Assembly (NCBI RefSeq): GCF_047663525.1
Contig: NC_092613.1
Span: 3,001,501-3,065,500 of the forward strand
DNA from: Anas platyrhynchos
Taxonomy: Eukaryota; Chordata; Aves; Anseriformes; Anatidae
Length of the DNA: 64,000 nucleotides
Reading direction: 5' to 3'
Shown here: positions 2,045 to 13,500 of the stretch, piece after piece
How the letters are laid out: every line of letters begins with the position of its first letter
Numbering within the stretch: the stretch's first letter is position 1
Program-made: the position numbers and the translations under genes
The notes under the pieces: generated by a model
Told to the model about the DNA's origin: nothing
The model's database searches: none
The model's input: only the letters and a program-made list of their open reading frames with translations

Positions 2045-2267
2045 GGGTATCCAACAAGAAGAACAGTTTTAATTTTTTTTTTTTTTTTAAATATACCATA
2101 GGACTACGCGGTTCAACTGTCAATCATCTCGGAGAGTTCAAGGAGGAGGTCATCCTCGTCCTTCCCTGGGTCTAAGTCGATTTCGGCTTCCAGTCTGCCT
2201 CCTGAGATTTCCCAAAGTAGCTTCTCAAAATCTTCATCCGCAGATAAGGGCGCGTTCCCTGTGGAAC
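2045..2267 (-). pseudogene. ZC3H11A: Duplicated 3' end of ZC3H11A (copy D1, detached)
   Basis: This segment repeats the last ~50 codons, stop codon (2113-2115) and first ~70 bp of 3' UTR of ZC3H11A. The functional copy D2 lies at 10503-10710, with its first 11 bases stranded at 2268-2278. D1 has no splice acceptor or upstream coding sequence: directly upstream on the minus strand is the start of D2, then an LTR. Three substitutions separate the coding parts of D1 and D2 and all are synonymous. The T-run in the UTR part is a few bases longer in D1. D1 lies downstream of the live stop codon, so it is most likely an inert exon fragment in the 3' region. Confidence 0.85.
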
Positions 2268-2278
2268 GGGTATCCAAC
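2268..2278 (-). repeat. Stranded first 11 bp of duplication copy D2, including left CCAAC target duplication
   Basis: The 11 bases repeat 2045-2055 exactly. The last five (2274-2278, CCAAC) recur at 10498-10502 on the far side of the interrupted LTR, forming its 5-bp target-site duplication. D2 then resumes at 10503. This places the tandem duplication before the LTR insertion. Confidence 0.85.
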
Positions 2279-2675
2279 TGTGGTGGTTTTACCATGCTGG
2301 GCAGCTAAACCCCACAACCGCTCTCTCACTCCCCCTCCTTTAGATGAGGAGGGGGAGAAGTAAAGCAAAGAACAACTCACGGGTTGAGATAAGGATAAAT
2401 TAATTAAAGGGAAATAATAATAATAATTAAATAAAGACTACCATGAACTAAACAATTTAACTAAGGGGAAATAAAAAGGGAAAGGGGAAAAGGGAGGGGA
2501 AAAGGGAAAATAAAAAGAAGGGAGGAAAACAAACAAACAAAATAAATGAAGGCTATATGGAAGTGCAGAGGAAAGAAATTACTCTCTACATCCCAAAAAT
2601 GAGCGCTGATTGACCACGTCCTTGAAGCAAGGCCTCAACGCACGCAGCCGGTGTTCAAGAGGAGGACCGACGTCT
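2279..2675 (-). mobile_element. Interrupted ERVL-like solo LTR, 3' part
   Basis: On the minus strand this is the 3' part of an LTR whose 5' part lies at 10196-10497. The outer ends are TG and CA and are flanked by the 5-bp duplication CCAAC. Together the parts make ~699 bp. The left end, read on the plus strand, resembles the solo LTR end at 41617-42182. No internal retroviral genes of this older element are present, so it is a solo LTR that was later split by the provirus. Confidence 0.8.
2670..2675. repeat. Provirus target-site duplication ACGTCT (left copy)
   Basis: ACGTCT directly abuts the left end of the provirus and recurs exactly at 10190-10195 beside the right end. A 6-bp duplication is typical of alpha- and betaretroviruses. 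Its perfect state shows that both ends come from one integration event. Confidence 0.93.
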
Positions 2676-3091
2676 TGTTGCGAAACCATTTGTTGTCGAC
2701 GGAAGGAAGACACAGACGCTCAATATGAGTGATCAGTGAACTTCGATTTATTGGATAGCTCAGTCGTCTTTTATCTAATTCAATATAATTAGCTCATACA
2801 TATTGCAAAAGCTAAGCTCATGATTGGTTAGTGCATTTCTCTATTCTATCAGCTAGTTTCCCACCAAAATAACACAGTTAGTACTTTCCCAGCATACCAA
2901 CAGATATCACGTTCTTGTACCTGAAACCTCCCTGAAACCTCCCTATAACCTCCCAGAACTTACATTCCTTCCCAGGCTGCATTTACGTATTTTCTCAGGC
3001 TCATTTGAGCTGTGTTCGATACTTTGTTACCTCGCGGCCTCCCAGCTGCTCAACATCCACATGACCTACTTCACTTACCCATTCCTCCACA
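2676..3091 (-). repeat. Provirus 3' LTR
   Basis: The 416-bp LTR runs TG...CA on the minus strand. It contains a CCAAT-type box (2823-2827), a TATA-like GATAAAAG (2768-2775), an AATAAA signal (2747-2752) and three tandem GGGAGGTTT-type repeats around 2920-2957. The start of U3 also encodes the last ~31 residues of Env, whose stop codon is at 3001-3003. It differs from the 5' LTR at one site in U5 (cacaGacg versus cacaAacg) and one in the U3 repeats (ctaTaac versus ctaAaac). Confidence 0.95.
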
Positions 3092-10189: not shown

Positions 10190-10195
10190 ACGTCT
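10190..10195. repeat. Provirus target-site duplication ACGTCT (right copy)
   Basis: Exact copy of 2670-2675 abutting the other end of the provirus. Confidence 0.93.
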
Positions 10196-10497
10196 TCTCA
10201 ACGAGAGCCCACCCCTCCCCTCTTCTTCCTGTTTCCACCTTTTATTGCTGAGTATGACATCACATGGTATGGAATATCCCTTTGATTGGTTTAGGTCAGC
10301 TGCCCTAGTGATGTTTCTCTCCTCACTTTTTGCCCATCCCCTAGGAGGGTTAGAGAAAGGCCCAATACTGTGCCACCACAGCTCAGCAATAGACACAACA
10401 CTGCTGTGATAAATCTGTTGTTCCAGCTACAAGTACAGAGTACAGCAGTGTATGGGCTGCTGCCGGGAAAGTTAACATTCCAGCCAGACCCAGTACA
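10196..10497 (-). mobile_element. Interrupted ERVL-like solo LTR, 5' part
   Basis: On the minus strand this starts with TGTACTGGGTCTGGCTGGAA at 10497. It parallels the solo LTR at 36065-36652 closely, including the AACCAATCAAAGGGATATTC region and the TATA-like CAATAAAAGG (10238-10247). CCAAC at 10498-10502 is the right target duplication. It begins 58 bp after the ZC3H11A stop codon, in the same orientation. Confidence 0.85.
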
Positions 10498-10555
10498 CCA
10501 ACAAGAAGAACAGTTTAATTTTTTAATTTTTAAATATACCATAGGACTACGCGGT
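10498..10555 (-). terminator. Residual ZC3H11A 3' UTR with two ATTAAA poly(A) signals
   Basis: Only 58 bp separate the ZC3H11A stop from the LTR. Two ATTAAA hexamers (minus strand, 10522-10527 and 10514-10519) fall here, so cleavage would be expected close to the LTR junction. Alternatively transcripts read into the LTR or provirus and use their signals. Copy D1 has one of these hexamers next to a longer A-run. Confidence 0.5.
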
Positions 10556-13500
10556 TCAACTGTCAATCATCTCGGAGAGTTCAAGGAGGAGGTCATCCTC
10601 GTCCTTCCCTGGGTCTAAGTCAATTTCGGCTTCCAGTCTGCCTCCTGAGATTTCCCATAGTAGCTTCTCAAAATCTTCATCCGCAGATAAGGGCGCGTTC
10701 CCCGTGGAACTCAGCTGGCGTGTGCGTGCCTCTTCTAGCTGGGAAGAAGCTGAGGTCGAGGTCTCGAGATCGATCTCCATCTGCTCCTCAAATCTTGCCG
10801 GGCTTCCAAGACGCACTTCAGGTCTTGGGAGAGCAAGAACAATCAGGATATGCCATTTCTTAACGGGAAATCCGTTTTCTGCAAACCGGCTCTTCAAACT
10901 GTAGGCAAGCCCTCCTACGCTTCAATCTTACACAGGGATTGTTATCAATCCACCCAGGGCTACATTTAGAGCCCGATGTGTTACCAGCTACATTTTTCAG
11001 TCTGGGGGTTTATCCGTGAAGGCAGGGCACCTGGAGTTGAGGTGGCATTCTTGAGGACCAAAAGGCAGAGGACACTACTCCTCATCTATCACCTCACGAG
11101 GAAGTAGAACTTCACCTCCTCCTCGTTCAGGTATTCAGACAACCCAAGAAGTCACTGGAAAGCTGTGCTGACTTGCAGCATTTAAAGAAAGCCGAATTAA
11201 GCAATCCTGCTAGATTTCCTGCTAGAAAGTGGTTTCAGGTGACTTATTCCTTTGATGGATTTTGGCTTTAATTATCTCAGAACCCTCATTTTTTCCCACA
11301 TGTGACAGAACGTACGTTTCCCTGGGGATATACACTGATTAAGAGAAAGAACAAGTTGGGGTTGTCACCTGTTTGGGGGATTTTCTTCAAGTCTGATGGC
11401 TGGGATGTGCTCCGGCACGTCTGAAACACCCTAGAAAGCAGCAAAACAGTATTTATGACACATGGGTAAAAGATTCCTCAATAGCTTTTTCCTCCACACT
11501 GCTTCTCCTCTGGCATTGCGGAGCCGTGGCCAAAATACAAAACCAAGGTGCTCCTGAAGAAAGTTCACATTCACCTGGACGTTACTCATGCTCTTGTGTC
11601 TTTTAAGAACATGGCATTAATGGACAAAATCCCCCACACCAGAGAAATCACAGCATCAGAGTACCGGTTCAAGAGTGCCATTCATCTCCTAAATACAGAA
11701 GGGTTCTACAAGCATCCTGGAGACAGCTCCCGGATTTAAAAGGAAACAGAAGGCCTGCAGAACGTTTGAGTTTTCCACCTTTTCTCCTAGAGGAGGGTAG
11801 AAATTTAACAAGGGATCCATCTCTGCATTAGCCCCTGGCCTTACCATGGCTGCTTTTTTGGCTGGAGGTCCCATCATGTCAGCAGCAAAGGCAGTCCGTA
11901 GTTCCACAGCTGCTACGGCAGAGGGATAACTCCCAGGTGCCTTACGTTTCAGTGCCTTCTTCTTGGGGAAAGTGACTTTCCCACCCGAAGGCTTCGCAGA
12001 TGTCATCAAGTTGGCTAGAGTAAAAGGAAGAGAGAACTGATACAGTCTTGCTCCGCCTCAGGAAAAATCCAGGTTCTCTTCATCATTTCCACAGTCCTTC
12101 TACACAGTTAAATGCATTTGGCCAGCAGAATTACACCGCCATTGCCTGGATTCTCAGGAATGTTTTCCACATAGTAAACTCTGTCTACCAACAATCCATA
12201 CAAAGGAACAAAGAAACCCAATAGCTACAGTAAATAATAATCCAGGACAAGGGAAACCTCAGACACATAGCAATCCTAAGTGCCAGCTAGGTTCACAAAT
12301 CTAGACAGCTTTTATAGTTAAAGTCCTGCTCCCTCTAGGAAAGGAAAAAGCAGCAGTTAGAGTAGGACAAGAGTGTATGCAACTGTTGTACCAGCTTCCT
12401 CTCCCTTGCAGTGATGTCCCACAGTTAAGTTGTTCTACACCGTCCAAATTTGTCGTGTCATTTTCTAGTCTCCCGTTCCTTACCTAACATCTGGCTGGCA
12501 GGAAAAGAAACAAACTAAGAAAAAGAAAGTACACACTTCGCTTCGTAGCATTGCGTGGCAAAATGCACCCAGCCAGAGTTACAGCATGAGAATCGTCATC
12601 TTCTGTCTGTATTTCAGAAGACAACCTAAGGAACTCTTAACCTTCAACACTTACTTTTAGCTTCCTGGCCCTGAAATTGAGCTGCCACTTTCCCTGCTGG
12701 TTCAGTATTAAAGAAGCCAGCAGTAGATTTGACAGCAGCTTCCTCCTTCCGAAGCTTCTCTTGTTGTTCTCGCTGTTGCCACTTCTCCCACCGGCTCTCT
12801 TCAAAGCTCTTCTCTGGACATTTACGAGTTCCACTCTGCTGCGTGGGCTAGAAGGAAAGAAAAGTAGTGCATGAATAGGACAAAAAAAAATAAAAAAATC
12901 CGTGCGTGGAGATTTCGTTAAGAAAATCTGATCAGCAATCCCTCCAAAATGGTCTTGATGTGGAACAGCATATTAATATCCTTCAGGTTACTGTTGTTGT
13001 TTTTGTGGTTTTTTTTTTTCCATAAAATTCTGCATGTAACAAGAGCCATGCTTTACTATGGACACAGTCTCGCATATCTGCAATATCCACTGTGGCAAGC
13101 TTCTTTAAACAGCTAGGGTGTTCTGCTGTACATCTATTTATCACATTCTTTTTAAGCAGCAGAAAGTCATACAAGTTCCCCTATACAGTATCCACTGACA
13201 GACTGATTTCCTTCAACACAGAACTCTGGCCTTCCGTATTAAATCCTTCACGTCTGACAGCTCAAGGCAGTAAGAACAAAAAGAATTCCCTCCACGTTAA
13301 CCGTGTAGATTTCAGCTGGTGCTAACAGGGTTTCTTTGTTGCTGTGGTATAAACAGACTGATTCCAAGTTTGGGGATTACAGAGTTGTCTGGAAATGCTG
13401 CTGGCGATAGGATTTAGACTGCACTGCAGCTCCTACCAGGTGCTGAAGGGTAAGAACACACTCAAGAGGGTGGCACACGGTGAGTAACAAAACTTGGCAG

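Follow-up and report, generated by a model that had tools for sequence, protein, structure and literature searches.

Nested insertions of long terminal repeat (LTR) elements are reportedly used by REANNOTATE for relative dating. Here we analyse a stretch of 64,000 nucleotides of the Anas platyrhynchos genome (GCF_047663525.1, contig NC_092613.1; C27:3001501-3065500), hereafter the window, in which the 3′ end of a ZC3H11A-like gene carries a duplicated last-exon tail, an outer solo LTR within the second tail, and a provirus within that LTR. As in nested LTR-element dating, the younger element lies inside the older one and each has its own target duplication; unlike there, the outermost event is the duplication of a gene segment. 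Nesting alone does not fix the place of this duplication in the order, and the paralogs argue for the reverse. We consider it quite probable that the LTR came first, the tail duplication next and the provirus last, rather than the duplication first in a fixed order, as an earlier reading of the window (the original prediction) had it.

Segmental duplication of genes, both in tandem and to dispersed sites, accompanied by non-allelic recombination, is likewise a familiar process. The family described here resembles it in having units 8–18 kb apart at 98–100% identity in most long blocks, dispersed copies at 93–98%, and truncated and re-duplicated units, and is unlike the usual case in comprising at least 37 ZC3H11A-like tails. 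The provirus, for its part, recalls the class II recombinant avian endogenous retroviruses (ERVs), reportedly the subject of work by Henzy et al. in 2014, in that a bird virus combines a class II gag-pro-pol with an env of other origin. Such ERVs are described, in PMC3758190, as joining a gag-pol with alpha- and betaretrovirus features to a gamma-type env; the env of the window provirus differs in having avian gamma-type features, which that source gives as known, as of 2013, only among alpharetroviruses.

Results

The first tail copy (T1; 2045–2267, minus strand, 223 bp) duplicates the terminal part of the last exon of the ZC3H11A-like gene with an open frame, and below 2045 it adjoins ordinary 3′ untranslated region (UTR), the same arrangement as in LTR-free paralogs. 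The second copy (T2, minus strand) begins with 11 bp at 2268–2278, which end in a CCAAC target duplication (2274–2278), and resumes at 10503–10710, where it runs on into the coding exon with a stop codon at 10556–10558. Between these two parts lie the left part of the outer LTR (2279–2675, with the first ACGTCT at 2670–2675 at its end), the provirus, the right part of the outer LTR (10190–10497, starting with the second ACGTCT at 10190–10195) and the second CCAAC target duplication (10498–10502). The three nested events of the original prediction are real, with nearly exact coordinates, and each insert has its own target duplication.

Global alignment of T1 with T2 gave 223 columns, with 214 matches, five mismatches and four gaps; the divergence in the window is thus 5/219 paired columns, and 3/153 in coding bases, all three differences being synonymous. 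In L010, another unit on C27, the two tails differ by one synonymous and two nonsynonymous bases. The wholly synonymous differences in the window had suggested that T1 might be kept as an alternative last exon; L010 argues against a general pattern. The duplication junction, GGAAC followed by GGGTATCC, is found again in L010, and the layout of a full tail, 11 bp and the start of the LTR recurs in four further array units, so the arrangement is not an artefact of the window alone. No microhomology was found at this junction. Since the stop codon at 10556 lies upstream, in gene sense, of all the inserts, they leave the protein end encoded by T2 as it was; the inserts likely affect the 3′ UTR and the transcript end, and a transcript may possibly end in the same-sense LTR of the provirus.

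A single search of the genome (1.26 Gb, 42 contigs) with the last-exon tail returned 46 matches, which correspond, after grouping, to 37 ZC3H11A-like loci; these are spread over 12 contigs, with 12 on C13, eight on C27, six on C6, two each on C22 and C26, and one each on C3, C4, C7, C8, C11, C38 and C41. Copy counts from this search are lower bounds, and all the gene copies compared belong to one assembly of one individual of one species. Seven of the eight C27 loci form an array between 2.918 and 3.012 Mb with a unit spacing of 8–18 kb, and positions 1–26416 of the window share sequence with its units. What had been taken for a single conserved gene is the unit at the edge of a tandem array; the arrayed ZC3H11A-like gene contains introns, exists in many copies and belongs to a family with 37 or more gene tails. 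In blocks of at least 400 bp, stretches of the array are 98–100% identical to the window, except for one block of 96.0% in L043, and dispersed stretches on C13, C4, C3 and C7, in which introns are present, are 93–98% identical.

Reading of the tail site at every one of the 37 loci gave the following states. Most (27/37) have a single tail and no LTR. Four have a single tail together with the outer LTR of the window, in the identical position (on C41, C22 at 10.86 Mb, C26 at 5.88 Mb, and C11), one has the duplicated tail with a full, uninterrupted LTR (L010, C27:2.934 Mb), and one, the window copy, has the duplicated tail, the LTR and the provirus. In the remaining four (L009, L011, L012 and L013) the tail is duplicated, the LTR is cut after ~240–260 bp, and of the second tail only a 41-bp remnant follows; in L012 and L013 this remnant unit is itself repeated. 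All six loci with a duplicated tail lie within the C27 array of the window and each has LTR sequence, and a duplicated tail without LTR sequence was found in none of the 37 loci. The states thus form nested sets, with the provirus only within the duplication and the duplication only within LTR-bearing loci. Because of this nesting, and because in the four LTR-bearing copies with a single tail the LTR lies in plain 3′ UTR, the LTR is most likely older than the duplication, and parsimony places the tail duplication after it. The same 4/37 and 0/37 counts speak against a duplication-first order that is fixed.

Reassembled as 2279–2669, one ACGTCT and 10196–10497, the outer LTR measures 699 bp, or 693 bp without the ACGTCT; its termini are TGTGG...TACA, and CCAAC stands on both sides in the window, L010 and L029–L032. 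Parts of both halves match one continuous older LTR at 36070–36511 of the window (minus strand; 72% over 150 columns and 71% over 269 columns), so the halves belong to one element, a continuous LTR that lacks retroviral internal sequence, as in a solo LTR. A 5-bp target duplication is the rule for ERVL-type LTRs, and the label "ERVL-like" is compatible with the one seen here. The six full LTRs (window, L010, C41, C22, C26 and C11) agree in site, length and CCAAC, which shows that they are one and the same insertion. In the four single-tail copies the context is CACCTCG-GGGTATCCAAC-LTR-CCAAC-AAGAAG. The LTRs of the window and L010 differ at 2/693 positions, either of them differs from those on C41, C22, C26 and C11 at 13/693, and the latter four differ among themselves at 0–2/693.

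In L010 and L029–L032, that is, in five of the six loci with a full LTR, nothing interrupts the LTR, and the 51 bases read around the provirus site contain ACGTCT just once; only the window copy, 1/37 loci, has the provirus at the tail site. Comparison of the copies shows that the provirus is younger than the outer LTR, and its place as the last event stands.

One array unit, L014 (C27:2.9895 Mb), has neither the LTR nor a second tail. Its tail equals T1 of L010 apart from the poly-T and two positions, 215 and 217, whose bases are those of T2 of L010; its flank groups with the C27 array (bootstrap 99), and its position next to L010 has a bootstrap of only 49. L014 likely lost the LTR by recombination between two tails, the alternative being an LTR-free ancestor.

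Coding blocks of the ZC3H11A-like gene were located by tblastn with a human ZC3H11A protein sequence as probe. Besides the last exon, which ends at 10556 on the minus strand and whose protein match extends to 10765, they occupy 10711–18077 (minus strand), with the start-codon block at 18077–18024 and further blocks at 17835–17704, 16946–16800, 16363–16188, 14957–14853 and 14091–13768. An N-terminal CCCH block and a conserved acidic C terminus, in a coding sequence split by introns, identify the gene as ZC3H11A-like, and the C terminus matches named ZC3H11A records from Alligator, Geospiza and Thamnophis. For human residues 168–270, blocks were seen in the C4, C3, C7 and C13 copies and none in the window copy, and for residues ~540–741 no match was obtained in any searched stretch, although short or diverged exons may escape tblastn; residues 447–540 were matched only weakly, as second matches of the 337–446 block. 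The alignment jumps at window position 15791. The C4 copy also has a 45-bp tandem repeat (C4:3453561-3453829) that matches window 16066–16154.

Seven upstream coding blocks were checked in ten other units and, wherever matched, had no gaps and no stops; several of the ten gave no match for some blocks because their stretch was not covered. The last-exon open reading frame (ORF) is open in 33 of the 37 loci, the C8 copy among them. In the array units L009, L011, L012 and L013, a deletion between LTR and tail truncates the last exon, and its ORF enters LTR sequence and meets an early stop, the frame ending in LTR-derived sequence.

The provirus lies on the minus strand, in the same sense as the gene, with its 6-bp target duplication, ACGTCT, on both sides. 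Its 3′ LTR (2676–3091) and 5′ LTR (9774–10189) are each 416 bp long with two mismatches between them, and directly inside the 5′ LTR is the primer-binding site TGGCGCCCGAACAGGGAC, which we take to be of the tRNA-Lys type. The gag region (7692–9574) holds two ORFs in different frames (8834–9574 and 7692–8846), read as an interrupted gene; the ORFs for dUTPase-protease (7021–7923, 300 aa, with dUTPase and RVP matches), pol (4409–7018, 869 aa, with reverse transcriptase (RT), RNase H and integrase) and env (3001–4428, 475 aa) are open, all on the same strand.

Near-identical LTRs, the 6-bp target duplication and the primer-binding site of the tRNA-Lys type are features of a betaretrovirus, as are the dUTPase-protease fusion and the nearest gag and pol matches. 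The best structural chains for pol were 7sr6, presumably the RT of human endogenous retrovirus K (HERV-K), and 7usf/3jca, presumably the integrase of mouse mammary tumour virus. For the gag capsid, two HERV-K capsids were among the top three (E 3.7e-18 and 3.8e-18), and the Rous sarcoma virus capsid 2x8q was weaker (E 2.5e-10). Alpharetroviruses are not known to have a dUTPase; the presence of one here, together with betaretroviral pol and capsid chains, speaks against an alpharetroviral gag-pro-pol. The env is not of beta type: it matches Avian_gp85 and TLV_coat, its best PDB match is the transmembrane protein of avian sarcoma and leukosis virus, and its motifs (RIKR at 251, cysteines at 263 and 298, CX6CC at 343) are avian gamma-type, as that env of alpharetroviruses is defined in PMC3758190. 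Read from these frames and matches, the provirus is a betaretrovirus-like gag-pro-pol joined with an avian gamma-type (alpharetrovirus-like) env, so that the earlier label "betaretrovirus-like" holds for gag-pro-pol and fails for env. A literature search on avian gamma-type env, betaretrovirus and endogenous found only PMC3758190, a result that does not establish the combination as new. The provirus pieces searched against other loci (L002–L050) gave no match, and neither the pol piece against a phage collection nor the exon protein against viral contigs gave anything useful.

The rest of the window holds several further elements. A repeat of ~1.19 kb at 21402–24474 forms a tandem of two complete copies and a partial one, 98–99% alike, and a 119-bp piece of it is found again at 1–119. 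A reverse-transcriptase fragment lies at 49385–50029 (minus strand; RVT_1, E 9.8e-13). A potassium-channel ORF (BTB_2, Ion_trans) occupies 53675–55648, and inside it is the Rfam RNA-editing signal K_chan_RES (55271–55384, 113.7 bits), the only match of the Rfam search.

Discussion

The account that we favour would begin with amplification of the gene onto several contigs, after which a single insertion would have placed a retroviral LTR in the 3′ UTR of one of these copies, creating the CCAAC repeats and leaving a solo LTR in two paralog lineages, the C27 array and the single copies on C41, C22, C26 and C11. In the C27 lineage, illegitimate recombination would then have joined the end of an LTR-free tail to the start of an LTR-bearing one, producing what looks like a duplication of 223 bp in which only one copy has the LTR. 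That the joined partners were an LTR-free and an LTR-bearing copy or allele is probable, since this explains the LTR-free first tail and LTR-free copies are the majority (27/37). Tandem amplification of the unit would have followed; from some units the greater part of the LTR and a piece of the tail would have gone, and in one, recombination between the two tails probably removed the LTR; last, the provirus would have entered the LTR of the window's unit. With a neutral rate of ~2e-9 per site per year, assumed to hold for this bird, the two LTR lineages would be ~5 million years old, the split of window and L010 ~0.7 and the provirus LTRs ~1.2 million years, with wide errors owing to the small counts.

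Several observations weigh against this account and bear on the order of the original prediction, in which a plain 223-bp tandem duplication was followed by the LTR in the second copy and then by the provirus, and in which the four LTR-bearing single-tail copies would later have dropped their first tail. The window by itself reads naturally in that order, and a direct repeat suited to such a deletion is present: duplication first is possible if the C41/C22/C26/C11 lineage deleted tail copy 1 between the two 11-bp GGGTATCCAAC repeats. Tail-to-tail recombination may indeed have occurred in the array, since the tail of L014 mixes T1 and T2 bases of L010. In the FastTree analysis of the right flank (20 rows, as for IQ-TREE, with C38 left out for its short match), the LTR-bearing single-tail copies group with the LTR-free C3, C4 and C7 copies (local support 0.758) and the C27 array lies outside; if true, this grouping requires LTR loss or exchange between copies, and it would fit losses from a duplicated ancestor. 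IQ-TREE recovers the seven C27 array units together with a bootstrap of 99, and leaves the grouping with C3, C4 and C7 unresolved (39 and 49). The T1–T2 divergence is about that of the two LTR lineages (1.88%) and so cannot separate the orders, and because paralogs exchange sequence, presence and absence on one tree are not clean. Flank distances did not clearly point to the C27 array being a hybrid; we also sought such an origin in discordant left- and right-flank trees (18 rows with few differences in the left-flank alignment) and dropped it, as the distances and the bootstrap tree were too weak. Against duplication first stand the census, with no duplication without LTR sequence among 37 loci and four loci with the LTR and no duplication, and the need for at least one extra event, and we regard it as unlikely.

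A false duplication made by the assembler, by stitching an LTR-free to an LTR-bearing haplotype, is harder still to credit. The two tails do resemble two allelic states, the three coding differences between them in the window are all synonymous, and the round-number sizes of several contigs suggest binned scaffolding. However, six units share the layout, some of them truncated or re-duplicated, the window is free of N throughout, and the nonsynonymous differences in L010 mean that the synonymous pattern does not hold generally. Because the layout recurs, we rejected stitching as the main cause.

The LTR-first account carries a caution for nested loci in general, as a timeline based on nesting at one locus can mislead when that locus is one of many paralogs, and paralogs within one genome can provide the intermediate states. 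No published report of an amplified avian ZC3H11A family was found in literature searches on ZC3H11A with avian, bird genome or paralog, which returned one review of TREX; broader searches listed no paper whose title includes ZC3H11A, and one of the papers listed, PMC10434033, names it three times. According to PMC10371797 and PMC9681899, nuclear-replicating viruses use ZC3H11A. It is a very speculative thought, to which we give little credence, that a shortened ZC3H11A was amplified in the bird lineage to dozens of intron-bearing, mostly in-frame copies, which might compete with the full protein as part of an arms race against viruses, with LTR loss through tail-to-tail recombination serving as upkeep of the array. 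The ZC3H11A-like family is a natural set for the study of segmental amplification, non-allelic recombination and LTR loss, and it raises the question of what role many copies of a virus-relevant mRNA-export factor may have in a bird.

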